Below are positions 1,495-52,598 of a stretch of DNA of 53,512 nucleotides, piece after piece. The notes under the pieces were generated by a model. It was not told the DNA's origin and did not search any database. It saw nothing but the letters and a program-made list of their open reading frames with translations. The DNA is from a virus. The stretch is taken from IMG/VR virus record IMGVR_UViG_3300020156_000445, positions 1-53,512 of that record, one strand, 5' to 3'. Each line of letters begins with the position of its first letter. The stretch's first letter is position 1. Position numbers and translations under genes: made by a program.

Positions 1495-1771
1495 TGCCGT
1501 TCTCCTCATGGGCGAACTTGGGTTCGCTGTACTTGGCGAAGCGCGGGCCGATGTCGTCGTTCTCGCGAACGGTCATCTTGGCGGCCATGGCGATGCTGCG
1601 GATGGTCAACACGGCGGTGTCGCCACGCTGGACGACAAGCCCCCTGTCGCCGTGTCCGGCGTCCAGAAGGCGACGGCACAGGCTGAAGATGGGGCACCCT
1701 CTGGACGGGGCGGACGACACCCCCAGGGAGGGGACGCTACAGGTGTTCCCTGTGAGTTGAGCGATGAGCAT
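1487..1771 (-). CDS. Small hypothetical phage protein
   Basis: This 94-residue protein is unrecognised. It is placed immediately upstream of the putative internal virion gene and overlaps its start by 8 nt. A GGAGA motif lies just before its ATG. The N-terminal part contains three cysteines and the C-terminal 35 residues are charged. Gene position suggests a small virion or morphogenesis protein, but the sequence gives no function. The overlap and the Shine-Dalgarno motif are the main reasons to believe it is translated. Confidence 0.45.
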   Translation of the reverse strand: MLIAQLTGNTCSVPSLGVSSAPSRGCPIFSLCRRLLDAGHGDRGLVVQRGDTAVLTIRSIAMAAKMTVRENDDIGPRFAKYSEPKFAHEENGNG

Positions 1772-1834
1772 GGTTCTCCGTTTCCGACACCGAGGACGGT
1801 GCAGATTGCTGTCTGCTGGATTGGGGATGGGGAC

Positions 1835-1853
1835 AGGTGCAGTGACTGCACCT
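1835..1853. promoter_or_regulatory. Palindromic operator-like site 1
   Basis: The site is a perfect 19-bp palindrome, AGGTGCAGTGACTGCACCT, upstream of the leftward virion genes. The same core recurs at 2055 and 3205. Three copies of a 15-bp dyad in 1.4 kb is far above chance, so a dimeric repressor site is the simplest reading. The regulator itself is not identified in this window. Confidence 0.6.
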
Positions 1854-2054
1854 AAGGGGACACTGAAGAGGGAGTTAGGTAGGAGAAGAAGAGGGGTAGA
1901 ACGTAGGTGTCACCTGAAGAGACACTTAAGGGAAAACTTCGGTGGATACCTATGCTGAACCCTGGGGTCTCCCTGAAGGTGCAGGGCAATTAAATTACAA
2001 TCAGAGCTTCATCTTCAATCTTCCCAGAAGGCGCATCTCCGGGTTTCTGGATAT

Positions 2055-2069
2055 GTGCAGTCACTGCAC
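2055..2069. promoter_or_regulatory. Palindromic operator-like site 2
   Basis: This is a 15-bp perfect palindrome GTGCAGTCACTGCAC. The centre base is complementary to that of site 1, and the outermost pair of the 17-bp version is lost. It lies 220 bp from site 1, a spacing that would allow looping between sites. Confidence 0.6.
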
Positions 2070-2196
2070 CTATGACCGATCCTTGGTCATTGGGGAGAGG
2101 GCATCCTCAGGGCGGGTGTAGGTTCATGCCGTGTCCTGCGCCACGAGGCACCTTGGCACCCAGAGGGCCGCGTGAACCACAAGGCCCCTCGTGGCG

Positions 2197-2730
2197 TCAA
2201 CCTGCACCACAGCCGTAGACCTCCAGCAACCGACACCGAGAGGGCCGCCGGGCCGCCAGCTTGTCGCGCTCATCCTGAAGACGCTGCACCTTCCGGTTCA
2301 GGATCTCCATGGCCTTCAGCACGAAGGCGTCTTCGTCCATCTCCCCGGAGCGGACCTTCTCCTGCCCAGCGATGTACCCGCCGTCCTTGCGGATGGAGGG
2401 GAGGACTTCGCGGGTCACCCAATCCTGAAACTGACGAACCACCGGGTTCGCGTTCGGGTGGGAACGGAGGATGAGCTTGTAGAGCCCGCTTTCGGAAATC
2501 AGGACGTAGGAGGGGGCGCGAACTCCCTCGAAAATTTCGAGACAGTCACGGCGGGTCACCACACGCTTCTCGTCGTCGTTGATGGACTGGAGGTAGCGAA
2601 CGGCACCGCCGTTTTGCAGGGAAAGCCCCAGGCAGCGGCACACGTCGTTCGCCACGAACCACGGGTTCCCGTCGATGGTGACGATGCGGACGCTGTTGTC
2701 GCGGAAGGCGAAAGTCTGAAGGGCGTTCAT
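2197..2730 (-). CDS. BRO-N family phage antirepressor
   Basis: This 177-residue protein starts with a BRO-N domain (about residues 5-105). Family hallmarks visible are the GNPWFVANDVCRCLGL segment and, near residue 80, the SESGLYKLILRS motif, followed by FQDWVTREVLPSIRKDGGY. The C-terminal 60 residues form a charged helix. BRO-N proteins bind DNA or repressors and act as antirepressors in temperate phages. A good AGAGGA motif precedes the ATG. The last 20 residues look unlike the usual C-terminal KilA-C or ANT domains, so the C-terminus may be truncated. It lies between the integrase and the operator-containing gap. Confidence 0.85.
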   Translation of the reverse strand: MNALQTFAFRDNSVRIVTIDGNPWFVANDVCRCLGLSLQNGGAVRYLQSINDDEKRVVTRRDCLEIFEGVRAPSYVLISESGLYKLILRSHPNANPVVRQFQDWVTREVLPSIRKDGGYIAGQEKVRSGEMDEDAFVLKAMEILNRKVQRLQDERDKLAARRPSRCRLLEVYGCGAG

Positions 2731-2933
2731 GATGTTCCTCTCGGGTATCGAGTGCGAAGGTTCGCTTGAGGTGAAGGTGCAGGGGAATGTGCCCGCGCCC
2801 CCACACGTCCCCGCGTCCTATCGCGCCGATCCCCTCGCCCCTGCCCAGGGTAGTCGCGCGGCTCCGGTCCCATCCCGGCGGGCAACCTGCATAGCTCCCG
2901 TCGATGCCGCCCACGGTCACCAAGAGGTCAAGC

Positions 2934-3980
2934 CTACTCCGCCGCTGTCTCCAGCACCTTCACGGCGTCCGTCAGGTTATGCGGGGCCAGCATGGCGTAC
3001 CGCATGGTCATCTGCATGGTGGTGTGGCCCAGCCAGTCCCGGACGACCTCCAGGCGCACCCCGCGTTGCACCAGACGGGACGCGCAGGTGTGACGGCAGA
3101 TGTACGGGATGAAGTGCGGGTCCTTCGACAGGCCCATTCGGGAGCGGGCCTTGTCCCAGACATGCCGCATCCAATGGTTGTCGTAGGGGAACAGTTTTTC
3201 GGTCGGTGCAGTCACTGCACCAATCCGCCGCTCCATGATCTCCTTCACCCGCTTGGTCATCGGGACGGCGCGGGGCTTGTCCGTCTTGGTGACCCACATG
3301 GAGATAAGGCCCTGCTTCAGGTCCACGTCGCGGGCCTCCAGGCGCCATAGCTCCCCGTTCCGCATCCCCGTGTCTATGAGGACGGTCACCACGTCGGCAT
3401 GGTCGTCCTTCCCCCACTGCCTCAGGAGCCCGAGAAGGGACTTCTCCTCGGCCTCGGTGATCCACCGTAGCCGGGTCTGGCCTTCCTTCTGGCGCTCGAT
3501 CTTGGGGACCTCGGCCAAGAGCTTCTTGTCCTTCATGTGCCGAAGCATCTTGGACAGGACGGCCAGCTTGCGGTTGATGGTGGAACCTGAGTTCCCCTTC
3601 TCCTCACAAGCCGTGACGAACTCTTCCACCGCTTCCATGTCGATATGGGCGATGGGCTTGGAGGACCCGAAGTGTTCCTCAAGGGCCTTGTAGATCAGCT
3701 CGGTTTGCTTCCCCCAGGCGGTTCCCTTCCAGAACTTGGCGTGCGTCTGAGTGTAGGCGTCCTTGAGGGAAGTGCCCTTGCCGGTGAACGCGCGTTCCTC
3801 GTTCTTGGTCACGGGCGTAGGCCCCTTGGGTTCTGGCACGGGTTCTCCTGATTTCAGGGCATCCCTCACCTTCTGCTCGAATGCTTCGGCGTCCTCCTTG
3901 TTGACGAAGGTCGGGCGCAACCGCTTCCCTTGCGCCAAGATGTCCACCTGCCACGACTTTCCACGCTGGCGTACAGCCAT
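2934..3980 (-). CDS. Tyrosine-type phage integrase
   Basis: This is a 348-residue site-specific recombinase. The N-terminal part (1-60) is a beta-rich arm-binding region beginning AVRQRGKSWQVDI. A SAM-like core-binding domain follows at about 75-165. The catalytic domain shows Arg in DTGMRNGELWRLE near 207, CRHTCAS (with Tyr-Ile before it in place of the usual His) near 294, Gly-His in WLGHTT near 318, and the nucleophile Tyr in MRYAML near 328. All the catalytic residues needed are present, so it is probably functional. GGAGTG precedes the ATG. A copy of the operator palindrome lies within its coding sequence at 3205-3221. Confidence 0.88.
   Translation of the reverse strand: MAVRQRGKSWQVDILAQGKRLRPTFVNKEDAEAFEQKVRDALKSGEPVPEPKGPTPVTKNEERAFTGKGTSLKDAYTQTHAKFWKGTAWGKQTELIYKALEEHFGSSKPIAHIDMEAVEEFVTACEEKGNSGSTINRKLAVLSKMLRHMKDKKLLAEVPKIERQKEGQTRLRWITEAEEKSLLGLLRQWGKDDHADVVTVLIDTGMRNGELWRLEARDVDLKQGLISMWVTKTDKPRAVPMTKRVKEIMERRIGAVTAPTEKLFPYDNHWMRHVWDKARSRMGLSKDPHFIPYICRHTCASRLVQRGVRLEVVRDWLGHTTMQMTMRYAMLAPHNLTDAVKVLETAAE
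3205..3221. promoter_or_regulatory. Palindromic operator-like site 3, inside the integrase gene
   Basis: This is the perfect 17-bp palindrome GGTGCAGTCACTGCACC. It lies within codons for the integrase catalytic domain. The codons it occupies (Gly-Ala-Val-Thr-Ala-Pro) are not conserved integrase residues, so the dyad is not explained by protein constraint. It matches the two intergenic copies at 1835 and 2055. Confidence 0.5.
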
Positions 3981-4037
3981 GCTTTCACTCCGAAGTGTCT
4001 AAAGATTGATGACGGTGTGGGAAGTGGGCCGCGACAG

Positions 4038-4256
4038 TTACCGGCCGAGTTCACCGATGACGATCAAGAGGGGGCCAGCGTAGACGTAGACGCTTCCGAA
4101 GTCCTCTTCGTCACGGTGAATTGCCCAACGCTTCCCCTCGGGGTGAGCGAGTTCGGAGAACTGGCGCATGTACCCAGGCGCAAACCACAGGGTGCGGCCA
4201 CCAAACACAACGTGCGGCTGGGGCGTCGTCATGCCAAACGAAATCTGGAAAGTCAT
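4038..4256 (-). CDS. Small hypothetical protein
   Basis: This 72-residue protein is rich in aromatic and beta-branched residues, with no membrane segment of sufficient length. AAGAGGA lies upstream of the ATG at 4256, which decides that start over a longer in-frame form beginning at 4331. It lies 57 bp upstream of the integrase gene on the same strand. No family is recognised. Similar-sized genes next to integrases are sometimes recombination directionality factors, but no helix-turn-helix is evident here. Confidence 0.5.
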   Translation of the reverse strand: MTFQISFGMTTPQPHVVFGGRTLWFAPGYMRQFSELAHPEGKRWAIHRDEEDFGSVYVYAGPLLIVIGELGR

Positions 4257-4308
4257 AGGGTCCTCTTGGGTTGAGATGCCCGAAGGATTACCTCTAAAGA
4301 TAACAATT

Positions 4309-4410
4309 GCAACAACTTTAGTGTCCAACATGTGAAACGATGCTTGGGAAGTATAAGTTGTTGCCTTGATTGGTTTATCGGCTACATGTCATGCCCTGAG
4401 TTTCACATGT
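4309..4410. promoter_or_regulatory. Interleaved inverted repeats upstream of the small gene
   Basis: Two inverted-repeat pairs interlock: GCAACAACTT (4309-4318) with AAGTTGTTGC (4355-4364), and ACATGTGAAAC (4328-4338) with GTTTCACATGT (4400-4410). The order A-B-A'-B' cannot form one simple nested hairpin. It suggests either paired protein-binding sites or a pseudoknot-type RNA. The second B copy overlaps the last codons of the leftward antirepressor fragment. The stretch is AT-rich compared with its surroundings. Confidence 0.45.
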
Positions 4411-4953
4411 GAGACCATTGGGCCTCCCACGGCGCCACGCCACGAAGACCTTGATGAGCATGGCGCGGACCTCCTTGGCCCGCTCAGTGCGGGAGAGGGC
4501 GCAGACGAGGAGGGCCTGTTCCTCGTTCAGGTAGTAGGCCATCTCGGGACGACCGACGCGGCCATTGTGGATGCGCTGCATCCGCAATTCACCAAAGCCC
4601 TCCATTTCGTCACGGTGGGCGTCGATGATGTTCTGTCGAACCTTGCGCGGAACCGCCATGCCCAGGCGTTCCGCAAGTTCCACGTCAAGGACGCGGGGTT
4701 CGTCTTCGATGGTGTGAAGGGGGATGAGGTTGGGCTTGGCGGGCTCCACCGTCCCACGCTCGTAGGCGTCGAACTTCTTGATGACCTCAACGGTCACCTC
4801 GATAGCCGTGGGGGTTCCCGACTGGGTGGTGATGAAGATGGCCTGAGGCTTGTTCAGGTAGTAGAACGTGGGCGGACGGCCGGGGCCTCGGATTTCTCCC
4901 CGCCGAGGAGAAATGTCGCCGGGCGTCCGCCGGTTTGCACCCGGCAGGTGCAA
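4375..4953 (-). CDS. Two-module phage antirepressor-type regulator, 5' end broken
   Basis: This 192-residue open frame contains two related modules of the phage regulatory type. The first holds PPTFYYLNKPQAIFITTQSG (about residues 28-47) and the second MAYYLNEEQALLVCALSRTE (about 137-156). Each is followed by a helix ending in a Phe-Asp/Val-Ala-rich segment (KKFDAYERG, KVFVAWRRG). Between them lies a linker with EGFGELRMQRIHNGR. The first 25 residues do not fit the family. DNA further upstream encodes a homologue of the linker in a different frame (see 4954-5094). The protein as drawn is therefore probably a decayed version of a longer regulator. Confidence 0.6.
   Translation of the reverse strand: MHLPGANRRTPGDISPRRGEIRGPGRPPTFYYLNKPQAIFITTQSGTPTAIEVTVEVIKKFDAYERGTVEPAKPNLIPLHTIEDEPRVLDVELAERLGMAVPRKVRQNIIDAHRDEMEGFGELRMQRIHNGRVGRPEMAYYLNEEQALLVCALSRTERAKEVRAMLIKVFVAWRRGRPNGLTCETQGMTCSR
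4888..4943. repeat. Two perfect inverted repeats at the frame break
   Basis: Two short hairpins stand close together. One has ATTTCTCC and GGAGAAAT arms around a 7-nt loop (about 4891-4913). The other has TTTGCACC and GGTGCAAA arms around CGGCA (about 4933-4953). They sit exactly where the reading frame of the antirepressor changes, so they mark inserted or duplicated DNA. The second hairpin also contains GGTGCA/TGCACC half sites like those of the operator palindromes. Confidence 0.5.
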
Positions 4954-5094
4954 AGGGGGCCATTGTGGAGGCGGTGCCTCTGCAATTCACCGAAGCCCTC
5001 CAGTTCGGCCCGGTGGCGCGCTTCGACAGGCTATCCCTTCCCAGACACCTCCCGGCCGGTTACGCCGCTCCACGCCCTAAACCTGGGTAGCTGC
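4954..5094 (-). pseudogene. Out-of-frame upstream part of the antirepressor gene
   Basis: About 57 bp at 4959-5015 match 4561-4617 with roughly 8 differences. Read on the minus strand in the frame that aligns, they encode ELEGFGELQRHRLHNG, a near copy of the internal linker of the neighbouring gene. The frame then runs into a stop before reaching the FYYLN module. The ancestral gene probably had this linker before both modules, and a small insertion or duplication broke it. The 5' part is lost at the boundary with the downstream end of the DUF6538-type integrase. Confidence 0.5.
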
Positions 5095-5096
5095 CT

Positions 5097-6785
5097 TCAG
5101 TCCCCCGCCGGTTGCTCCTTGGTCACGTAGAGGTGCGACAGGTCCAGGCCAGGGTAGGCAATTGCTTTGATCTTTTCCGCAAGAGTGCTGGCCCTGAGCC
5201 CTGAGCCGTAGTCATCATCAACGGAACCTCCTTCCCACCCTCCCAGCGCCAGCACTACGTCGCGAGAAAACCCTGCTTCTCGCATTGCGTCCCGATAGTT
5301 GTGACGGAAGGAGTGAAAGGTGGTTTTCTTTGTATAAGAATTTGCTGATTTAAGGAACCGCCCATACCACTTTGAGAATGGGTCAGAGTAATATGCGTTA
5401 GCACCAAGCGGAAGATCTGGGAACAAGCGTGCATTCTTGGCCTTGCGCTGCTCTTCAACGAACTCAAGGAAGCCGATCTTGACCAACTCGGGATGAACAG
5501 GAACGTAACGTTCACCAGCATCTGTTTTCACTCGCTTCTTGTCCCCTTCATCACCCCCTTCGGGATCTTCCTGAATGAGAATGCAGGTTGTTCCGTCAAT
5601 GGTAGTTACGTCAGACGTGAGAAGCTGACAGCATTCGTTGAGTCGCATCCCCGAATACAAGGAAATGAGGGGGACCCAGAAACGCCCCCGACGCGGGCGC
5701 GACGGTCCCGCCTGGGCGTATCCCTCTCGATCATTCAGACACCCAACGTATAGAGGGGTGGAGAAGATGGTGGTGAGCTGCTCGGTGCTAAATGGCTTCT
5801 TCTTGTCTTTGCCCCTTCTATTGTCCTGAACGCGGAGCCCCGTTGCTGGGTTCTTTTCCGCAATGTCCTCTTGCACGGCCCAGTTGAACAGAGAGGCTAG
5901 GTTGTTCAGATAGCTATTGATGGAGGTGGCCGACATAGGCTCGATACCATGCGCCTCTGCATGTTTCGCCACCTCCTCCAGTGACATTCCGGGAAAACGC
6001 TTGGTCGCGTTGGGAGGAACCTTGGTGAGGGTGCTTTGCAGTCTTCGGCAATCGTCGCGCGTGATGTCCCGGACAGGCTTGTTCCCTCCCAGGGCCTCCT
6101 TGAGGAGGCGGAAGATAACTCGATAGCCGTCCTTGGTTTTGCCCGACAGGCCCGCGCGTTCCGGCGCATCCATGTACCGGTCTATCAGGTCTTCAAGAGT
6201 GACCTTGACGGGGGCGGCGGGGGCGGGGGATGGGGTTTCGACAACCCTACCGGCATGACGGGCCTTCATCATGTCGTTGGCCGTCACGCTGGCCTTCAGC
6301 ATGGCGCGGGCAACTCGCTGGTAGGGCTGCGAGCCCTTGGAGGCGGAGAGTCCGTGCTGCCTTAGGATTTCCTCAACCTCGAAATCCAGATGATCGGTTC
6401 GCCCGGTGGCGAGCGCGTAGCCCATCCCGGCTTCCACTACGCTCAACGTTTCCGCGATCTCCTCATAGGACTTGTCATCGAGCCCCTCTCGGCGGATCTC
6501 CTCGTCCTCCTCCATCACGGACGAGAGCCACAAGGTCGCGAGTCGGGTGGCTTCAGCCTCGGAGATGTCGTCTTCCGTGCCCTGGTGTCGCTTGCGGGCG
6601 GCGTCAAGCTGTTGGTCAACTTTCAGGCTTTCAGCCTTGACCAGCCGCGCGGCTTCTTTGGGGTCTTTGGTTCGTAGGCTCTGCCAAATCTCCGTCTTGC
6701 CGATCTCCTTGCGAAGATCCTCGGGTACGGAGACGCGGAGATAGTACACGCCGTTGCGGCGGTGGAGGCGGGTGTGACGCGGCAT
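5097..6785 (-). CDS. DUF6538-type tyrosine site-specific integrase
   Basis: This is a 562-residue recombinase. The N-terminus (PRHTRLHRRNGVYYLRVSVP, then EIWQSLRTKDPKEA) is the DUF6538 arm-binding region. A SAM-like core-binding domain sits near 215-320. The catalytic domain has Arg in LYSGMRLNECC near 380, FHSFRHNYRDA near 491, LGGWEGG with Trp in the His/Trp position, and the nucleophile Tyr in DDDYGS near 524. All expected catalytic elements are present. The start at 6785 matches the family N-terminus; longer in-frame starts upstream would run into the attachment region. It reads away from the att copy at 6883, as expected for the integrase of the left element. Confidence 0.88.
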   Translation of the reverse strand: MPRHTRLHRRNGVYYLRVSVPEDLRKEIGKTEIWQSLRTKDPKEAARLVKAESLKVDQQLDAARKRHQGTEDDISEAEATRLATLWLSSVMEEDEEIRREGLDDKSYEEIAETLSVVEAGMGYALATGRTDHLDFEVEEILRQHGLSASKGSQPYQRVARAMLKASVTANDMMKARHAGRVVETPSPAPAAPVKVTLEDLIDRYMDAPERAGLSGKTKDGYRVIFRLLKEALGGNKPVRDITRDDCRRLQSTLTKVPPNATKRFPGMSLEEVAKHAEAHGIEPMSATSINSYLNNLASLFNWAVQEDIAEKNPATGLRVQDNRRGKDKKKPFSTEQLTTIFSTPLYVGCLNDREGYAQAGPSRPRRGRFWVPLISLYSGMRLNECCQLLTSDVTTIDGTTCILIQEDPEGGDEGDKKRVKTDAGERYVPVHPELVKIGFLEFVEEQRKAKNARLFPDLPLGANAYYSDPFSKWYGRFLKSANSYTKKTTFHSFRHNYRDAMREAGFSRDVVLALGGWEGGSVDDDYGSGLRASTLAEKIKAIAYPGLDLSHLYVTKEQPAGD

Positions 6786-6843
6786 CATAGCCCCACGACT
6801 GTAGCACATGGCTGTAGCAGTCGCGGCGCAATTCCGGTGACCT

Positions 6844-6860
6844 ATCAGTAACTTACTGAT
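6844..6860. promoter_or_regulatory. 17-bp perfect palindrome between integrase and att core
   Basis: ATCAGTAA and TTACTGAT flank a single central C. It lies 59 bp upstream of the DUF6538-type integrase start and 22 bp from the 14-bp tRNA-derived repeat. The place suits an integrase, excisionase or autoregulator binding site of the left element. Confidence 0.5.
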
Positions 6861-6882
6861 TTCCCTCAGGGCCAAGGGAAAA

Positions 6883-6896
6883 TGGCGGATGGGGTG
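6883..6896. repeat. attL: copy of the tRNA-Ser 3' end
   Basis: TGGCGGATGGGGTG is identical to the end of the tRNA-Ser gene at 52509-52522, which includes the CCA, the discriminator base and the acceptor 3' strand. Beyond it the match decays to 8 of 12, ending in CGAAC of the T-arm, so the sequence looks like an old tRNA remnant. It lies 183 bp before the P4-type integrase start, which fixes it as the left attachment site of the 45.6-kb phage. It may also be the right junction of the left element. Confidence 0.8.
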
Positions 6897-7025
6897 TCTT
6901 CCGAACACGCATTCTCCACCGTCCGTTTACGACCGCCGACACCGCTGAAAGGCGCGTAAAACCTCGCGTTTGCCATCCGTCACGTTCACGCTCGGTCGTT
7001 GACGTTCGCATGCAGCCGTGAAAAA

Positions 7026-7048
7026 GTGTGGGACGCAGTGTGGGACGC
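7026..7048 (+). repeat. Left integrase arm-type repeats
   Basis: Two copies of GTGTGGGACGC start at 7026 and 7038, a 12-bp period. A second pair with the same orientation and period lies at 52432 and 52444 near the right end. Such short direct repeats inside both ends are how P4-family integrases recognise attP arms. They also overlap the region just upstream of the integrase start and could serve autoregulation. Confidence 0.7.
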
Positions 7049-7079
7049 TGCGGTTCGACGGACGGCACGGGAGCGCGAC

Positions 7080-8294
7080 GTGGGCAGCCTGACAGCGGTG
7101 AAGGTGAAGGGCCTGAAAGAGCCGGGTCGGTACACGGATGGCGCCGGCCTGATGCTGGTCATCGGCAACGACGGCAGCCGGAAGTGGGTGCTGCGCGTCC
7201 AGGCCAACGGCAAGCGGCGCGACATCGGCCTGGGCTCTGCCAGCGACGTGAGCCTTGCCGACGCACGCGACGCCGCGACGGAGATGCGCAAGGCGATTCG
7301 GGAGGGCCGCGACCCGGTGGCCGAACAGCGGGCCGCCAAGGCTGCCGCAGAGGCGCCGGCGATTCCCACCTTCAAGAAGGCGGCGATCGAGGTGCACGCC
7401 GAACACGCGCCATCCTGGAAGAACCCGAAGCACGCGGCGCAGTGGCTGACCACCTTGGAGCGCTACGTCTTCCCGGCGTTCGGCGACCGGCTGGTGGACG
7501 AGATCACCGGGCCGATGATCCGCGACGTGTTGGCGCCGATCTGGCTGGAGGTCCCGGAGACGGCGCGGCGCATTCGGCAGAGGATCGGTACCGTCCTCGA
7601 CTGGGCGCACGCCAAGGGCTACAGGCCAGCGGAAGCGCCCATGCGGTCGGTGACCAAGGGCCTGCCGAAGCAGGCGAAGGGGCAAGAGCACTTCGCCGCT
7701 CTTCCCTGGGCTGACGTGCCCGACTTCATCGCCCGGCTGCGCGAGACCGATAAGACCGGCCCCATGGTCAAGCTGCTGTTCGAGTTCCTGATCATCACCG
7801 CGGTGCGCAGCGGCGAGGTGCGCGGTGCGCGGTGGAACGAGTTCGACACCGACGCGCGGCTTTGGACCATCCCCAAGGAGCGGATGAAGGCCAAGAAGGT
7901 GCACGTTGTGCCGCTGTCGGACAGGGCGATGCAGATCCTCGAAGAGGCCGGCAAGGCGCGCACCAGCGAATCGGACGATGCGTTCGTGTTCCAGGGCACG
8001 AAGCCCGGCCGGCCCTTGTCGGACATGACGCTGACGATGCCGCTTCGGCGCATGGGCATCGAGGCGACCGCACATGGCTTCCGGTCGTCGTTCCGGGATT
8101 GGGCCAGCGAGGCGACCAACTTCCCGAACGAGGTGGCAGAGGCTGCCCTTGCGCACGCGGTCAGGGACCGCACGGAAGCTGCCTACCGGCGCGGCGACCT
8201 GCTGGAGAAGCGGCGGAAGATGATGGACGCCTGGGCTGCCTTCTGCGAGGGGCGCCGGGGCAAGGTTGTGCCCATGGCCCGCAAGAGGGCCTGA
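7080..8294 (+). CDS. int: P4-type tyrosine integrase (DUF4102 N-terminus)
   Basis: This is a 404-residue integrase. The N-terminal DUF4102 arm-binding domain (about 1-80) begins GSLTAVKVKGLKEPGRYTDG and continues LRVQANGKRRDIGLGS. A core-binding domain follows at about 95-190. Catalytic residues are Arg in TAVRSGEVRGARW near 243, His-Gly-Phe-Arg in ATAHGFRSSFRDW near 331, His in ALAHAV near 358, and Tyr in EAAYRRG near 367. I chose the GTG at 7080 because GGGAG precedes it by about 8 nt and the family starts there. An upstream ATG at 6999 would place the arm repeats inside the gene. It drives integration at tRNA-Ser. Confidence 0.92.
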   Translation: MGSLTAVKVKGLKEPGRYTDGAGLMLVIGNDGSRKWVLRVQANGKRRDIGLGSASDVSLADARDAATEMRKAIREGRDPVAEQRAAKAAAEAPAIPTFKKAAIEVHAEHAPSWKNPKHAAQWLTTLERYVFPAFGDRLVDEITGPMIRDVLAPIWLEVPETARRIRQRIGTVLDWAHAKGYRPAEAPMRSVTKGLPKQAKGQEHFAALPWADVPDFIARLRETDKTGPMVKLLFEFLIITAVRSGEVRGARWNEFDTDARLWTIPKERMKAKKVHVVPLSDRAMQILEEAGKARTSESDDAFVFQGTKPGRPLSDMTLTMPLRRMGIEATAHGFRSSFRDWASEATNFPNEVAEAALAHAVRDRTEAAYRRGDLLEKRRKMMDAWAAFCEGRRGKVVPMARKRA

Positions 8295-11472: not shown

Positions 11473-12828
11473 ATGCAGCCCACCAACGATACATCGCTGA
11501 AGCTGTCGGTGACGCTCCCCGTCAACCCCGACATCGAAGACGCCCTCATAGGGTCGGTGCTGATGGCGCCGAAGCTCTGGCCGAAAGTCGCGCACGTGCG
11601 GCCGTCGGACTTCCACAGTCCGGCGCACGCTTCGGTGTGGGAGGTGATGGCCGAACTGGCGAGCGGAGGAAGCGCTCCCGACCTGATCACCGTCACGGCT
11701 CGAATCACGGCCGGGCTCGATCACGCATCGGACGAAGCCATGGCGTGGCGGAAGCACCTGCACGAGCTGACGCTCAGCGGCGGATACATCGCCCGGGAAG
11801 CCCAGAACTATGCCGCGATCGTCCGTGACTACTCCGAGCGCCGGCGGCTGATCTGGGCGATGCAGGATGGCATTCACGCGGCGGCCGACACCGCCGCTGC
11901 TGATACGGCGGCGCAGGTCGCCGGCGGCGTCATGGCGCGGATCACCGTCGACAGTCGCGTGTCCGACGACATCGAGGACGCCTACGACATCGCCGGCCGG
12001 GTGGTCGACGAACTGGACCGACCCATCGACGTGGTGAGCACCGGCATGCCCCGCCTGGACGCCGCGATGGGCGGCGGCATCCGCCGGGGGACGTTCATCG
12101 GCATCGGCGGCGACCAGAAGGCCGGCAAGTCCACCCTGCTCGGCTCCATCGCCTACAACCTGACCGTCGGCGCGGAAGAGCGCGGCGTAGAGGTCGAGCC
12201 GCTGGTCTACCTGTGCCTGGAGATGAAGCCGGAGACCCAGCTGCAGCGCCTCATGGGCCGCTACATGGGCATGAACTCGGAAGCCTTCACCGACCCGGTG
12301 ACGCGCGCCCAGCCGTGGTTCAAGCGCAAAGCCCAGGAGGCCCAGGAGGCGCTGCGCGGCAAGGGGCTGTTCTTCGCGGCCCGCCCCCGGATGACGCTGG
12401 ACGACCTGAAGGGGACCTTGGCGCGGATCGGGCTGTCGAAGAAGTTCCGGGGCGCGATGGTCGACTACGTGCAGTTGGTGGGCGGCAAGCGCAGCAAGAC
12501 ATCGATGGCCGAACACCTGGACGATGTGAACCAGACCATCGCCGAGACCTGCGTGAACACTGGGCTTTGGGTCATGGCCGCTGCCCAGCTCAACAGCGAG
12601 GGCAAGGTGCGCGGCGGCAGTGGCTTGAACGCAGCGTGCGACATCGCCTTTGCGATCCGGAAGCACCAGGAAGTCTATGGGCAGGACCACGAAGCCCACC
12701 TGGAGAACCTGGCTGCCCGCTACACGCGGCAGCTGAACGTCGGATCCGAGAACTGCGCGGCCTACCGGCTGCGGTCGGATCGAGGTCCCTTCTACGACGA
12801 ATTGGAACTGCCGCCGCGCATCGACTGA
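11473..12828 (+). CDS. Replicative DNA helicase, DnaB family
   Basis: This 451-residue protein has the N-terminal DnaB domain at about 15-115 (EDALIGSVLMAPKLWPKV) and a RecA-like ATPase domain from about 185. Walker A is GGDQKAGKST near 212. The H1a-like LCLEMKPETQLQRLM follows, then Walker B in FRGAMVDYVQLV near 330, and the H4 region near AAAQLNSEGKVRGGSGL. It unwinds DNA at the fork, loaded by the upstream initiator. It starts 8 nt after the initiator stop. The length matches host DnaB, and phage-encoded copies of this kind make replication independent of host DnaB recruitment. Confidence 0.9.
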   Translation: MQPTNDTSLKLSVTLPVNPDIEDALIGSVLMAPKLWPKVAHVRPSDFHSPAHASVWEVMAELASGGSAPDLITVTARITAGLDHASDEAMAWRKHLHELTLSGGYIAREAQNYAAIVRDYSERRRLIWAMQDGIHAAADTAAADTAAQVAGGVMARITVDSRVSDDIEDAYDIAGRVVDELDRPIDVVSTGMPRLDAAMGGGIRRGTFIGIGGDQKAGKSTLLGSIAYNLTVGAEERGVEVEPLVYLCLEMKPETQLQRLMGRYMGMNSEAFTDPVTRAQPWFKRKAQEAQEALRGKGLFFAARPRMTLDDLKGTLARIGLSKKFRGAMVDYVQLVGGKRSKTSMAEHLDDVNQTIAETCVNTGLWVMAAAQLNSEGKVRGGSGLNAACDIAFAIRKHQEVYGQDHEAHLENLAARYTRQLNVGSENCAAYRLRSDRGPFYDELELPPRID

Positions 12829-39207: not shown

Positions 39208-39915
39208 ATGACGACCGCCTCCACCGGCGGCGCGCTGCGGCGCGTCTGTCAGCCTGCCGTTGCCCTCGTGAAGCACTTCGAGGGCCTGTACCGGGACGCC
39301 TATCGCTGCCCGGCCGGCGTGCCGACCATCGGCTACGGCCACACCGCGGGCGTGCGCATGGGCGACGTCATCCGCACGTCCGACGCCGAGCTGCTGCTGG
39401 AGCAGGATCTCACCCTCGCCGCCGCCCAGGTCGACAAGCTGGTGCGCGTGCCCGTGACCGACGAACAGCGCGGCGCACTGGCGTCCTTCACCTTCAACCT
39501 GGGCGCCGGCAGCTTGGCCGCCTCGACCCTGCTGAAGAAGCTGAACGCGGGCGACGTCGAGGGCGCGGCCGCCGAGTTCGGGAAGTGGGTCTATGCCAGC
39601 GTCGGCGGCTTGAAGAAGCAACTGCCGGGGCTGGTGGCGCGCCGTGCCGCCGAGGCCGCGCTGTTCCGCTCCGGTGCGGTCGCCGCCCAGGATCTGCCCG
39701 CCGGCCAGCACCACCCGCAGCCGCAGATGGGCGCCGCTCCCGACGGCGATGACGATGACCTCGTGCGCCGGGTGCAGCGCGTGGTCGGGGTGAAGGTCGA
39801 TGGCGTGTACGGGCCGGGGACGACGGCCGCGGTGCGTCGCTGGCAGGCTGCGCATGGGCTGGTGGCGGATGGTGTGGTCGGGCCGAAGACGGCGGCGAAG
39901 ATGGGGGTGGCGTGA
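39208..39915 (+). CDS. Endolysin: GH24 lysozyme with C-terminal peptidoglycan-binding domain
   Basis: This is a 235-residue enzyme. The GH24 lysozyme domain (about 10-155) shows the E-8aa-D/C-5aa-T triad as Glu25, Cys34 and Thr40, within HFEGLYRDAYRCPAGVPTIG and then YGHT. A Pro/His/Gln linker follows, then a PG_binding_1 domain (about 180-235) with VGVKVDGVYGPGTTAAVRRW and GVVGPKTAAKMG. It cuts host peptidoglycan at lysis. There is no signal or SAR sequence at the N-terminus, so it needs a holin, which I cannot assign with certainty. The start at 39208 follows CGGAGA. Confidence 0.93.
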   Translation: MTTASTGGALRRVCQPAVALVKHFEGLYRDAYRCPAGVPTIGYGHTAGVRMGDVIRTSDAELLLEQDLTLAAAQVDKLVRVPVTDEQRGALASFTFNLGAGSLAASTLLKKLNAGDVEGAAAEFGKWVYASVGGLKKQLPGLVARRAAEAALFRSGAVAAQDLPAGQHHPQPQMGAAPDGDDDDLVRRVQRVVGVKVDGVYGPGTTAAVRRWQAAHGLVADGVVGPKTAAKMGVA

Positions 39916-40226
39916 TGGACACCTCCGGCACGAGCGCCGAGCTCGACCGTGAGTTCCCGGTCCTGCTGTCCGACAGCGAGCGCCAGCGCCATCCCGATTG
40001 GCCGCGCGCCGTGCCGTGGTCGCTGCTCCAGCCGCACGAGCGGCAGGCCGACAGGAACCACGGACAAACGCTCAAGCGACTGGCGGAGCGCGGCGGTCTC
40101 TCCCCGGCAGAGATGGTGGCCGTGCTGGAGGACCGGCGCTGGCAGAGGATGGACCCGGAGGCGGCGGTAGCGCGGCTGAACGAGCTGGTGCGGCAGCACG
40201 CGGGCTGGGAGATGCGGAAAAAGTGA
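39915..40226 (+). CDS. Hypothetical protein after the endolysin
   Basis: This 103-residue protein is coupled to the endolysin by a TGATG overlap. It is soluble and charged, with WPRAVPWSLLQPHERQADRN and LSPAEMVAVLEDRRWQRMDP, and no membrane segment. It is the last rightward gene of the late block before the DnaA/LexA control region. Small proteins of this kind follow endolysins in several alphaproteobacterial phages, but the function is unknown. Confidence 0.6.
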   Translation: MDTSGTSAELDREFPVLLSDSERQRHPDWPRAVPWSLLQPHERQADRNHGQTLKRLAERGGLSPAEMVAVLEDRRWQRMDPEAAVARLNELVRQHAGWEMRKK

Positions 40227-40276
40227 CCATGACATGCCAAGCTAGCGCTGCGACTCGGTAGGCCTGTTTATAAGTC

Positions 40277-40398
40277 TGTGGATAACCACGGTATATATCT
40301 GTGGAAAATTTGCCACCCTACTTTTCGGGCGTGGCTAAATATTATGCAGGTTGCTCTCTGAGTTCGGAGTTATCCACTAAAGAGTGGAGTTATTCACA
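40277..40398. promoter_or_regulatory. Cluster of four DnaA-box-like sites
   Basis: TGTGGATAA at 40277-40285 is a perfect DnaA box. TGTGGAAAA (40300-40308), TTATCCACT (40370-40378) and TTATTCACA (40390-40398) each differ by one base. The first two point one way and the last two the other. All lie in an AT-rich 200-bp gap. This looks like a DnaA-binding element, either a second origin-type region or control of the adjacent promoter by host DnaA. Confidence 0.6.
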
Positions 40399-40419
40399 GA
40401 ATTTCCAAAATGGTGTCGT

Positions 40420-40434
40420 GAACGTAGTGGGAAC
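40420..40434 (+). promoter_or_regulatory. LexA-type SOS box
   Basis: GAAC-GTAGTGG-GAAC fits the alphaproteobacterial LexA operator (GAAC-N7-GAAC, the reverse of GTTC-N7-GTTC) exactly. It lies 24 bp upstream of a sigma70-like promoter that reads toward the antirepressor gene. LexA bound here would keep that gene off until DNA damage. Confidence 0.65.
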
Positions 40435-40457
40435 AAAAATCGAGGATGCGAACCGCT

Positions 40458-40485
40458 TTGGCGGCGGTCGTGATCGGTGTACAAT
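40458..40485 (+). promoter_or_regulatory. Sigma70-like promoter of the antirepressor
   Basis: TTGGCG (40458-40463) and TACAAT (40480-40485) stand 16 bp apart. The predicted transcript would have a leader of about 240 nt before the antirepressor start. The leader contains a GC-rich inverted repeat (CGGCGGGG at 40634 with CCCCGCCG at 40662), which could affect translation. Confidence 0.5.
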
Positions 40486-40734
40486 GAGGGCATGTTCGTG
40501 AGATGCGATGTGCCACGCCGGCTGAACCGGGCTCCCGCACTTCAAGTGTTTTGGTGCTGCTGCGCCGCTCATTCGCATGCGGCCACTCGTGTGTCGCGCG
40601 AACCGAAATCGGCCGATTCCGGCCGTAAGGTGGCGGCGGGGCGATACCTCCCCAGGCGCGTCCCCGCCGTCGCTTCCCTCGCTGGGCCTTCTCCCCGGGC
40701 CCAACTTGCCAACCCTCACTGAATGAGAGTGAGA

Positions 40735-41565
40735 ATGACCAAGCCCACTATGCCGCGCCGAGAATCCCGCGGCAACGATTCGATTGGCGCGAAGAAGAGT
40801 GCGCAGGTATGCGCTCAGGTTCGCATCGAGGCATTCGCCAACGACAATGAGCCCCGTGTGAGGGACGAGGAGTTGGCCCGCCGCCTCGGCTACGTGAGCG
40901 TGGACGCGTTCCGAAAGGTGATCCGGAAGCACATAAAAATCCTTAGCAAGATCAACCATCTAGCCAGACTGGACGAGATGGTGAATCGGTCGCAGGGTGG
41001 TGGCCGCAAGGCGGCTGTATACCTTCTAACCGAGGCGCAGGCGGTCTTTCTCATCGGTAAAGCCGGCACGGCTGACGCGGACGACGTTTTCGCCGAAATT
41101 GCCAAGGCGTTCGTCGAGTTTCGGCGCAAGGTGTTCCGCACCGACCTGTACGGCGCGATCATGCGGGATCTGCTGTTGCCCGCTCCGCGCACGTGGCAGC
41201 CGGAATACCCGGAGAGCTTCTGGGTGGTGCTGCACAAGGTCGGAGGATGGCAACGACCGCCGGGAAACAACCACTCGAACTGCGCCCACTTCATCAACGA
41301 GTTCATCTACAGCTACTTGCTGGGCGCGCTCGGGCTGAAGGCCTTGCAGGATATTAATCCGGCGAACGACGCAGGTGAACGAGCGCACCGCCACCACCAG
41401 TTTCTAAAAGAGAAGCATCTGGACCGTCTGCGGCAGCATATTGATACCGTCGAGCGGCTGCTGTCGAACTCGGCGTCAATTGGTCACTTCGCAGACCAGT
41501 TCGCTCGCTTCTTCAAAGTCCCCCACGCTCAGCTCGGCTTCCTATTCCAGGAGGAGGCCGCCTAA
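40735..41565 (+). CDS. P63C-type phage antirepressor
   Basis: This is a 276-residue protein. The N-terminal half carries a regulatory-domain pattern (RVRDEELARRLGYVSVDAFR, then YLLTEAQAVFLIGKAGTADA and AEIAKAFVEFRRKVF). The C-terminal part matches the P63C domain: YPESFWVVLHKVGGWQRPPG, FINEFIYSYLLGALGLKALQ and ERAHRHHQFLKEKHLDRLRQ. Such proteins inactivate phage repressors. ATG 40735 is chosen because GAGAGTGAG precedes it; a start at 40723 is also in frame. With a LexA box and promoter 270-315 bp upstream, it is probably the SOS-controlled trigger of lytic growth. Confidence 0.82.
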   Translation: MTKPTMPRRESRGNDSIGAKKSAQVCAQVRIEAFANDNEPRVRDEELARRLGYVSVDAFRKVIRKHIKILSKINHLARLDEMVNRSQGGGRKAAVYLLTEAQAVFLIGKAGTADADDVFAEIAKAFVEFRRKVFRTDLYGAIMRDLLLPAPRTWQPEYPESFWVVLHKVGGWQRPPGNNHSNCAHFINEFIYSYLLGALGLKALQDINPANDAGERAHRHHQFLKEKHLDRLRQHIDTVERLLSNSASIGHFADQFARFFKVPHAQLGFLFQEEAA

Positions 41566-41591
41566 CGGCAAGGGGCAGCAGCTTCAGTTCG

Positions 41592-41616
41592 AAGGCCCGC
41601 CCCACCGGCGGGCCTT
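41592..41616 (+). terminator. Terminator of the antirepressor transcript
   Basis: AAGGCCCGCC (41592-41601) pairs perfectly with GGCGGGCCTT (41607-41616) around CCACC, followed by CTGCTTTC. It lies 27 bp after the antirepressor stop. The next 260 bp (41617-41879) hold no gene I can support. Confidence 0.65.
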
Positions 41617-41879
41617 CTGCTTTCCGGCACATGATCACGCGCTACACACTTCAAGCGCCCTGCGGCGCCGCAGTATTTTGTTGCGGTGCATGGCCAAACC
41701 CATACGGCGCTCGCTAATCGATTGCATTGATTGGCGGCGTTGCAAAGTTATTCAATGGACCTCGCAGTAAGATATTGATTGATCCGGCCTGCCTATGCTG
41801 CATTTTCATAACCAACCTCTTCAGGCAATGCTTGCTTGAGGAAGTTGGATGGTACCGTCTCATTAATGTGAGGATTGTG

Positions 41880-42074
41880 ATGTTTTACACGGTTGAGTAT
41901 GGCGATGGATCACGCAAGGTTCACGAAGTGGATCTTAATACGCGCGATGCTCTGGCGCGGTTTTATGCCTTGAAAGCAGCCGGAGCGGAAAAGGTCAGGA
42001 TCATCGACAAGCGAGGTGAACAGGTGGAGCCGCACTACCTGGATCTTGCCATCCGAGGCGTGCGCTTCGGCTGA
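41880..42074 (+). CDS. Small hypothetical protein
   Basis: This 64-residue soluble protein is charged, with VEYGDGSRKVHEVDLNTRDA and KAAGAEKVRIIDKRGEQVEP. It has an alpha-beta pattern like small phage modulators but no known family. GTGAGGATTGTG precedes the ATG. A bidirectional hairpin follows it. The preceding 300 bp have no gene, so it has its own promoter or is transcribed from far upstream. Confidence 0.55.
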   Translation: MFYTVEYGDGSRKVHEVDLNTRDALARFYALKAAGAEKVRIIDKRGEQVEPHYLDLAIRGVRFG

Positions 42075-42092
42075 GGCGGGCTGAGGCGGGGC

Positions 42093-42131
42093 GAAATGCG
42101 GCGGGTGCCTCCGGGGCGCCCTTCGCATTTC
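42093..42131. terminator. Bidirectional terminator between convergent small genes
   Basis: GAAATGCG (42093-42100) pairs with CGCATTTC (42124-42131), with a further GC-rich stem inside. It lies between the rightward 64-residue gene and the leftward 73-residue gene and reaches the stop codon of the latter. Confidence 0.5.
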
Positions 42132-42351
42132 AGCCCTCTGCGTACCGCCAGTACGCCTCCACCAGCACCCGCAGCGCCGCCATCATCTCGGGCACCGGCC
42201 CGCCCTGCTGCCGCGCCCGCTCGCACCGCTCCTCGACCAGTTGGCATAGCCCGGCCACGCTCATCGCCTCCCGCCTCGCGGCGGCGTCCAGCTGGGCGCC
42301 CAGGTCCGGGTCGGAGGTGATGATCAGCGAGGCGGTGACGGTCGGGCTCAT
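42130..42351 (-). CDS. Small hypothetical protein
   Basis: This 73-residue protein is helical, with DPDLGAQLDAAARREAMSVAGLCQLVEER and a Trp/Tyr-containing C-terminus. No family is recognised. It reads opposite to its neighbours and is isolated. The ATG at 42351 is the best start; a longer frame up to 42399 adds an unlikely basic N-terminus. The confidence is low because short leftward frames are common in this GC-rich DNA. Confidence 0.4.
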   Translation of the reverse strand: MSPTVTASLIITSDPDLGAQLDAAARREAMSVAGLCQLVEERCERARQQGGPVPEMMAALRVLVEAYWRYAEG

Positions 42352-42601
42352 GATGGTGCATCTGGCGGTGGAGCAGATGCGCAAGAAATGCGCGCGCATT
42401 TAGGTGTATGCAACGCGACGGAGTGACGCCACAACGGGGTATGGCTGCCGGCGGTGCGTGACCTGCACCGCAGGAGCCGGGCCAGAATTCTTGCGCCGTG
42501 ACGGGAACTACGCGTTCATCGCCGCCACAAATGGAGCGAGCGACGTAAGCGGTGGCGCTCCGCCGTTCGCGCCGCACCTGGAATGGATCACGGGGGTTCG
42601 A

Positions 42602-44891: not shown

Positions 44892-44951
44892 GACCCTGCT
44901 CCATCCCTGGGATCATAAACCTATCAACGGAATATAAGGAGAACAAGCGCC

Positions 44952-45674
44952 ATGAGCGCCACCCTGAATCGTGCCCTGGTCGAGACCCTGCCCATCACCG
45001 GCCCGCACGCGGAGACGCTGCGGGCCGCCCGTGACGCGCTGTGCTCCGTCGCCCTGGCGCAGGGTCTGACGGTGGTGCTGTCCACCGACTGGAACGCCCT
45101 GTTGGATCTGAACCGCCGGCACGTCGACACGTGGCTCCCCCTGATGCACCAGCCCAACGGCGAAGACGCGTTCTGGCTGGCCGCGGTCGATCGCGACGGC
45201 GAGGTGGTCAGCACCCATGCCGGCGTGCTGATGGACTGCGGCGCCGCGAGCTTCGGCGACCGGCTGTCCGACCTGTCATTCTTCTACGCGCGGCCCGACA
45301 TCGAGGCGGCAGCCGGGGAGCGGTGCTTCTGCGCCAGCGACACGGCGTTCCAGACGCGCGGCCGGGTGGTCTATCTCACGGCCGGCTGGACGCACCCCAG
45401 CGCGCGCGGCAAGGGGCTGCTGCACCTGCTCGGGCGGCTGGTCCGCCTGATCGCGTGGGACCGCTGGGCGCCGCACTGGTGGTGCGGGATGGTGGCGCCC
45501 GACATCGCGCCGCTGTGGTCGGAGGAGAAGGCCGGCCGGCGCTTCCTGGAGAGCCGGCCCACCATCCTGTACCAGAACCCGGCGGCGGGCTTCGACTACC
45601 CGCCGTACCGCTTCATCCGGTTCGGCCGGCCGGGCGTGCACCTGGACATGCAGCAGGTGGCGCAGGGAGGGTGA
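44952..45674 (+). CDS. GNAT-like acetyltransferase-fold protein
   Basis: This 240-residue protein resembles GNAT enzymes in its second half. The strand RVVYLTAGWTHPSARGKGLL (about 138-157) has the RGKG acetyl-CoA loop pattern, and the helix HLLGRLVRLIAWDRW follows, then CGMVAPD. The N-terminus (about 20-90) supplies the usual first strands (AFWLAAVDRDGEVVSTHAGV). The acceptor is unknown; phage GNAT proteins may modify host proteins or toxins. GGAGAA precedes the ATG. A strong terminator follows it. The call is by pattern and is moderate. Confidence 0.5.
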   Translation: MSATLNRALVETLPITGPHAETLRAARDALCSVALAQGLTVVLSTDWNALLDLNRRHVDTWLPLMHQPNGEDAFWLAAVDRDGEVVSTHAGVLMDCGAASFGDRLSDLSFFYARPDIEAAAGERCFCASDTAFQTRGRVVYLTAGWTHPSARGKGLLHLLGRLVRLIAWDRWAPHWWCGMVAPDIAPLWSEEKAGRRFLESRPTILYQNPAAGFDYPPYRFIRFGRPGVHLDMQQVAQGG

Positions 45675-49047: not shown

Positions 49048-49112
49048 ATTACCCTTATGATGTAGCGCATTCGGTTTTGGAAGGCAACCATAAAGATGAA
49101 CAATTACCCTAA
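49048..49112. promoter_or_regulatory. Repeated ATTACCCT sites around the XRE gene start
   Basis: ATTACCCTTA (49048-49057) and ATTACCCTAA (49103-49112) lie on either side of the XRE start; the second continues into AGGGGAAATT and is partly palindromic. These are candidate autoregulatory sites in the divergent 48617/49096 control region. Confidence 0.4.
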
Positions 49113-49374
49113 AGGGGAAATTACGCCATTCCTGTGCCGGCTTGGGCGCGAAGCGGCGGGCTGGTCACAGCAGCAGCTTGCCGAAGCAGTGCGCGTGACG
49201 AAGAAGACCATCGCGAGTTTCGAGACGGGGAGAACCAATCCCCAGCGCCGGACACTTGAGGACATCCAGACTGCGCTAGAGGCCCAAGGTGTCGAGTTCA
49301 TCCCCGCCGGCGCCTATCAGGGCGAGGGCGGGCCGGGCGTGCGGCTGCGGGCCGCGCCTTCCGCCGAATCGTAG
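49096..49374 (+). CDS. XRE-family helix-turn-helix regulator
   Basis: This 92-residue protein has an HTH_3 domain at about 14-65: REAAGWSQQQLAEAVRVTKK and then TIASFETGRTNPQRRTLEDI, with the standard Q-L-A and I-x-x-x-E-T-G-R positions. The C-terminal 25 residues are Gly/Ala/Glu-rich, without a cleavage or dimerisation domain of LexA type. It could be a Cro-like or small CI-like repressor of this phage. It is the only XRE protein in the element, which makes it the best candidate target of the antirepressor. It is divergent from 48617-49015. Confidence 0.8.
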   Translation: MNNYPKGEITPFLCRLGREAAGWSQQQLAEAVRVTKKTIASFETGRTNPQRRTLEDIQTALEAQGVEFIPAGAYQGEGGPGVRLRAAPSAES

Positions 49375-49439: not shown

Positions 49440-49793
49440 ATGCGCGAGCGGCATTCCGATAGCGGTCCCCGTGCGGGACGCGTCCCACGCACCGATCCGG
49501 AACTCGCCGCGCTGCTGCCGGACGGCCCGTCGATCACCGTGAAGCAGGCGGCGTCCCTGCTCAGCATCGACATCAGTTCCGTCTACAAGGCGGTGCACCG
49601 CGGCGAGCTGCGCGGGCACAGGGTGGGGAAACGCGCGGTGCGGATCTACCTGAACTCCGTCGACGCCTACAGGCAGGCGAGGGAGATCCACCCGCCAGCG
49701 CCGACGCCGGCGCCTACGCGGCGTGCAAGTGCTCGGCAGCCGTCCGCGGCGCACCTGGAAGCCGTCAGGTTCTTGGATAGCCTCGGGGCATGA
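49440..49793 (+). CDS. Excisionase-type HTH protein 1 of the right arm
   Basis: This 117-residue protein has an HTH_17-type domain at about 32-75: ITVKQAASLLSIDISSVYKA then VHRGELRGHRVGKRAVRIYL. A Pro/Arg-rich tail follows, ending in a short helix (HLEAVRFLDSLGA). It may bind DNA as an architectural or regulatory factor. The stop overlaps the next gene by 4 nt. It lies about 65 bp after the XRE gene and may share its transcript. Confidence 0.7.
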   Translation: MRERHSDSGPRAGRVPRTDPELAALLPDGPSITVKQAASLLSIDISSVYKAVHRGELRGHRVGKRAVRIYLNSVDAYRQAREIHPPAPTPAPTRRASARQPSAAHLEAVRFLDSLGA

Positions 49794-52508: not shown

Positions 52509-52522
52509 TGGCGGATGGGGTG
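52509..52522. repeat. attR: tRNA-Ser 3' end
   Basis: TGGCGGATGGGGTG is identical to 6883-6896. Here it belongs to the intact tRNA gene, so the phage lies on the 3' side of the tRNA and the tRNA remains whole. Confidence 0.85.
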
Positions 52523-52598
52523 GGATTCGAACCCACGGTAGGCTCGCACCTACGGCGGTTTTCAAGACCGCTGCCTTAAACCACTCGGCCACCCATCC
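52509..52598 (-). tRNA. tRNA-Ser (anticodon TGA)
   Basis: This is a 90-nt gene on the minus strand. The acceptor stem GGATGGG pairs with CCCATCC, followed by discriminator G and encoded CCA (52511-52509). The anticodon loop CTTGAAA gives TGA, reading UCA codons. A long variable arm typical of tRNA-Ser follows, and the T-arm has GGTTCGAATCC. Its 3' end is the attachment core of the prophage. It lies 95 bp upstream of the stop codon of the HD-GYP gene. Confidence 0.96.

Follow-up and report, generated by a model that had tools for sequence, protein, structure and literature searches.

A LexA-type site before a P63C/Rha-type regulator gene in an Azospirillum-like prophage: a plausible case of SOS-controlled antirepression

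Phages are known to keep antirepressor genes behind host LexA sites, an established strategy (PMC9437464). The Gifsy prophages of Salmonella encode LexA-controlled antirepressors, GfoA, GfhA and GftA, whose genes lie outside the immunity region (PMC3121763). Here, we describe a locus in an IMG/VR virus record of 53,512 bases (IMGVR_UViG_3300020156_000445, analysed at its full length and called the window below) that is a plausible further case of SOS-controlled phage antirepression, an already known strategy. The locus resembles the Gifsy systems in that a LexA-type site precedes a gene of antirepressor type that would lie outside the immunity region, and in that no self-cleaving repressor domain was found. 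However, the Gifsy antirepressors are small and their repressor binding is experimental, whereas the window protein is of the Rha/P63C type, has 277–280 aa depending on the start codon and is known here from its sequence; the site also differs in being of the alphaproteobacterial form GAAC-N7-GAAC. SOS-controlled expression, predicted here, and a proposed repressor-disabling role also characterise Tum of coliphage 186 and AntC of N15 (both cited in PMC3121763). No search found any sequence relation to either, and Tum has a DinI-like half, whereas the window protein combines a winged-helix-like and a P63C domain. An earlier note on this DNA had named both 186 Tum and P22 as models; the first analogy is apt, but the second is not, as the P22 repressor is RecA-cleaved. 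P22 Ant is controlled by Mnt/Arc, not by LexA.

The limits of the prophage are defined by three features.

6883–6896, plus strand: left attachment core TGGCGGATGGGGTG, identical over its 14 bp to the 3′ end of the tRNA-Ser
6999–8294, plus strand: tyrosine integrase of the prophage, beside the left core (PF22022, E 7e-27; PF13356; PF00589)
52509–52598, minus strand: tRNA-Ser(TGA), 99% identical to Azospirillum tRNA-Ser, with the right attachment core at 52509–52522

Since the 14-bp core recurs in the tRNA-Ser(TGA) and the integrase lies beside its left copy, the prophage can be placed at ∼6.88–52.5 kb. It is a contractile-tail prophage whose tail sheath is 80–84% identical to those of Azospirillum cavernae prophages. 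The sheath, together with a tRNA-Ser up to 99% identical, points to an Azospirillum-like host, and on these sequence grounds the virus is a prophage of an Azospirillum-like soil bacterium. Its structural genes are common to the A. cavernae relatives; to the right of the endolysin, the overlap is confined to the gene at 44952–45674, found in one prophage, and to the P63C protein's general Rha N-domain.

Another mobile element occupies positions 1–6882 and abuts the left attachment core; it carries genes for Bro-N, a Rha-like protein and two integrases. These genes (Bro-N at 2197, Rha at 4375, integrases at 2934 and 5097) were considered as parts of the same prophage and ruled out, as they lie outside the core at 6883; the element and the prophage are probably tandem elements at one tRNA-Ser site. 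A perfect 15-bp palindrome, GTGCAGTNACTGCAC, occurs there in three copies (1837–1851, 2055–2069 and 3206–3220), near Bro-N and an integrase gene, and is operator-like.

The locus itself comprises the following features.

40420–40434, plus strand: LexA-box-like site GAACGTAGTGGGAAC, alphaproteobacterial GAAC-N7-GAAC (motif search and weight matrix)
40458–40485, plus strand: promoter-like TTGGCG (40458–40463), 16-bp spacer and TACAAT (40480–40485), 9/12 matches
40490–40734, plus strand: probable leader of the P63C transcript, long, GC-rich and structured (fold −107.9 kcal/mol, z −2.4 against shuffles)
40723–41565, plus strand: P63C/Rha-type phage regulator, 280 aa (PF10546; phrog_518)
41591–41617, plus strand: terminator-like hairpin 3′ of the P63C gene, with an 11-bp GC-rich stem and no long T run (−31.1 kcal/mol, z −3.3)

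The more likely start codon of the regulator gene is the ATG at 40735, preceded by GAGAGTGAG. The protein matches Pfam P63C over residues 154–231 (E 1.7e-9, 38.6 bits against a cut-off of 26.1) and, as a whole, PHROG 518, ‘Rha-like transcriptional regulator’ (E 9.9e-23), the better of the two matching stretches being the C-terminal half (residues 170–279). Pfam Phage_pRha (PF09669) stays below its cut-off, at 18.5 against 29.9 bits. An AlphaFold2 model built from a 23-sequence alignment (pLDDT 78.9) predicts a confident winged-helix-like N domain (∼residues 35–137) and a helical P63C domain. The best viral structure in Foldseek is p63 of Myxococcus phage Mx8, similar in predicted fold over 241 aligned columns (E 2e-10); however, sequence identity is 17%, and Mx8 p63 is itself without established function in the sources found. 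Other viral structural neighbours are annotated as Rha, KilAC, antirepressor or regulatory proteins, and sequence and fold searches of the PDB returned nothing significant (DdrC, E 0.11). Thus, PF10546, PHROG 518 and the structural neighbours confirm the earlier assignment of the gene to the P63C type, within a phage regulator family usually called antirepressors. No antirepressor activity of any P63C protein is demonstrated in the literature found, and antirepression by this one is proposed from its family.

The candidate target lies near the right end of the prophage.

49096–49374, plus strand: short XRE/HTH regulator and possible lysogeny repressor (HTH_31 as its sole domain, E 3e-12)
49440–49793, plus strand: HTH_17 protein, excisionase-like (PF12728, E 8e-9; phrog_66 and phrog_2907, excisionase)

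The XRE protein (92 aa; 34% to gp64 of Azospirillum phage Cd) is the sole CI-like HTH protein of the prophage and is the candidate for its lysogeny repressor. It consists of the HTH only, in agreement with the earlier statement that it lacks a self-cleaving domain. A different regulator of the phage might have been self-cleaving; a six-frame search of the window found no Peptidase_S24 domain. The XRE gene is followed by excisionase-like HTH_17 genes, and after circularisation this module would adjoin attP and the integrase, a usual place of a lysogeny module. The P63C gene, ∼7.5 kb from the only CI-like gene, would therefore lie outside the immunity region.

These features suggest the following mechanism. 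The 40.2–41.6 kb region would be a separate single-gene transcription unit for the P63C/Rha-type regulator, a reading consistent with the terminator-like hairpin that follows the gene. In the lysogen, host LexA bound at 40420–40434 would hold down P63C transcription; upon DNA damage, LexA would be cleaved and the P63C protein would accumulate. The protein would then inactivate a non-cleavable phage repressor, for which the XRE protein is the candidate, and induction of the prophage would follow, on the pattern of 186 Tum or Gifsy GfoA. We favour this chain, although with confidence that falls a little short of even for the whole of it. Induction through SOS expression of an antirepressor, as proposed in the earlier note, is strengthened by the host-type box, the absence of Peptidase_S24, the antirepressor family and the single-gene unit, but weakened by the position of the box off the promoter and by a close relative that has no box (see below).

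The exact GAAC-N7-GAAC box is present on the plus strand as had been described. Its bare core carries no significance alone, since two matches were found in the window against 1.33 expected, and the significance of that motif was ruled out as chance-level. We therefore rely on the full site, scored with a weight matrix built from 45 distinct GAAC-N7-GAAC sites that precede lexA or recA genes in Azospirillaceae. The site scores 19.3, the highest in the window, with 0.011 such sites expected at the window base composition; leave-one-out scores of the 45 lexA/recA sites run from 18.3 at the 10th percentile to 21.9 at the 25th. The other exact-core match, at 35088, scores only 6.2. Among 2000 dinucleotide shuffles of the 496-bp gap before the gene (40227–40722), 0.2% attain 19.3 and 1.2% hold an exact core. 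LexA is encoded in 59 of 59 Azospirillaceae genomes tested, and GAAC-N7-GAAC was found near lexA at all 30 Azospirillaceae lexA loci examined. The view that this is a LexA site of the host type thus stands, and on its sequence we consider it likely, if unproven, that LexA binds here. The CtrA site TTAA-N7-TTAA does not occur in the window. One further LexA-like site was found.

44927–44949, plus strand: weaker LexA-like site GAATATAAGGAGAAC, second-ranked in the window (score 16.2, one core mismatch)

It lies 2 bp before the gene at 44952–45674; an A. cavernae prophage carries a 36% homologue of this gene at its right end.

TTGGCG-16-TACAAT is the sole promoter-like match in 39900–42500 (0.6 expected per shuffle), which bears out the promoter that had been placed before the P63C gene; the gap between box and −35, given earlier as 24 bp, is 23 bp. 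The box is centred at about −64, and the start codon is ∼300 bp away, beyond a leader of ∼250 nt between promoter and ORF. Boxes of Azospirillaceae lexA and recA are 19–150 bp away from the start, apart from a single one at 312. By eye, no convincing promoter overlaps the box. Because the box is upstream of the −35 and so far from the start codon, repression of this promoter is not obvious, which speaks against LexA control.

This geometry is part of the case for the strongest alternative, in which GAAC-N7-GAAC is a chance match and P63C an ordinary accessory (moron-type) regulator, transcribed from a promoter of its own with a long leader and free of SOS control, that works against other phages or within the lytic/lysogenic circuit. 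Exact cores are expected at more than one per window, the box lies off the promoter, and the closest P63C orthologue found (L232/L313, IMGVR_UViG_3300020202_000122; 55–57% identity) keeps much of the setting but not the box. In L313, the P63C gene adjoins endolysin/lysis genes, as in the window, and a −10-like TATAAT ∼230 nt before the ORF leads into a structured leader (z −3.4), but there is no comparable LexA box (best score 7.2) and there are no DnaA boxes. Apart from the endolysin, the other phage genes in the 20.8 kb of L313 examined are unrelated to the window. Against a chance match stand the rarity of the full-length matrix score and the fact that the best site of the window stands before a gene of an antirepressor family, and we judge this alternative rather unlikely. 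The two leaders (40490–40734 in the window, 9722–9967 in L313) are each ∼245 nt long and fold better than shuffles; their sequences align poorly with each other.

The next-closest P63C proteins (L225–L231 in IMG/VR, 38–44% identity) are the same two-domain protein. These relatives came from alignment-based scans; a single-protein scan of IMG/VR gave no matches, and the plasmid collection held no P63C match. In L225–L229 (five loci, four distinct), an exact GTTC-N7-GTTC lies beside an HTH repressor gene, within a TTGNCG/TTGCTG...CATAAT/CATACT promoter; P63C follows a cro-like gene, with the LexA box ∼700–770 bp upstream and not directly before P63C. In L225, the box is also 89 bp before a KilA-N/ANT antirepressor gene, and L230 and L231 have exact boxes further upstream. 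As exact LexA boxes occur in the L225–L231 phages, SOS coupling appears to be common in phages of this P63C clade. The exact arrangement of the window, a box directly before the P63C promoter, was seen in no other relative examined. Further Rha/P63C homologues were examined in annotated phages, Azospirillaceae and Alphaproteobacteria, and none had a comparable box near the gene; a survey of the ANT family in Alphaproteobacteria gave few loci, with only scattered boxes.

Three observations on these and other phages are recorded here. In four related phages, the exact GTTC-N7-GTTC (L225 2259–2273, L226 2232–2246, L227 2298–2312, L229 2301–2315) lies in a conserved sigma70-like promoter directed, in antisense orientation, into the 3′ end of the HTH repressor gene, with an open plus-strand frame of 68–80 codons behind it; this promoter is possibly an SOS-driven antisense or small-protein switch. 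The small plus-strand ORFs antisense to the L225–L229 repressor were not accepted as real genes, as they are in the codon register of the repressor and may be conservation shadows. Secondly, a small conserved protein of 85–87 aa (MAATERIIFQPYVW...) has an exact LexA box ∼20 bp before its start.

L229 985–1245, plus strand: small 85–87 aa protein
L230 630–890, plus strand: small 85–87 aa protein
L231 319–576, plus strand: small 85–87 aa protein
L233 1575–1832, minus strand: small 85–87 aa protein
L245 1635–1892, minus strand: small 85–87 aa protein

It adjoins KilA-N/ANT antirepressor genes in L233 and L245, and the L229 copy has no PHROG match. Lastly, related Azospirillum-type phages have a LexA-type box TAAGAACTTYTCAAGAACATTG in the space between divergent genes (L164 1945–1967, G005:C1:12127, and its equivalent in cavC, G001:C1); in G005, one of the flanking genes is of the Peptidase_S24 repressor type.

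The gap before P63C holds a second group of sites.

40277–40398, both strands: four DnaA-box-like sites (motif search and gap shuffles)
40277–40285, minus strand: DnaA-box-like TTATCCACA
40300–40308, minus strand: DnaA-box-like TTTTCCACA
40370–40378, plus strand: DnaA-box-like TTATCCACT
40390–40398, plus strand: DnaA-box-like TTATTCACA

The earlier note saw the LexA box and promoter in this gap but missed these sites and the structured leader. Immediately ahead of the LexA-type site, the four DnaA-box-like sites form outward-facing pairs in an AT-rich gap (43–52% GC, against 68% for the genome), and they may belong to an origin or to a promoter under DnaA control. A gap primarily bound by DnaA, as a phage origin or a DnaA-regulated promoter, would have its AT-richness explained by the DnaA sites and not by the LexA box. 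The window's only two TTATNCACA sites (0.18 expected) fall in the cluster together with two sites of one mismatch each, all four within 122 bp, and none of 2000 gap shuffles held two perfect or four near-perfect sites of this type. However, neither a turn in GC skew (there is no minimum, and thus no origin signal, at 40 kb) nor an adjacent initiator gene accompanies the cluster, the replication module with its DnaB-like helicase gene lies elsewhere (11473–12828), and none of the relatives found shares the arrangement. We consider a primarily DnaA-bound gap improbable as the explanation of the locus, and it would be compatible with LexA control of the same promoter.

A still less probable alternative is that P63C is SOS-induced but targets the element left of 6.88 kb (Bro-N, Rha and two integrases) or other prophages: that element abuts the left attachment core and antirepressor cross-talk is documented, FsoA of Fels-1 acting on Gifsy-2 (PMC3121763), but no operator or repressor was linked to either element. 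That host LexA and host DnaA jointly control one P63C promoter, which would thereby read both the replication-initiation state and DNA damage, seems to us very improbable.

If the favoured chain, from LexA-repressed P63C to prophage induction, is correct, the enterobacterial cases of SOS-controlled antirepression (186, N15 and Gifsy) would be joined by a prophage of the Azospirillum type in which both the LexA motif and the antirepressor family differ. It would also give a testable function to the P63C domain, which is widespread and without demonstrated role in the literature found, and would offer a concrete promoter for examining a possible joint gating of prophage induction by DnaA and LexA. 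Through the predicted control of a P63C regulator gene, DNA damage may thus wake a dormant virus.
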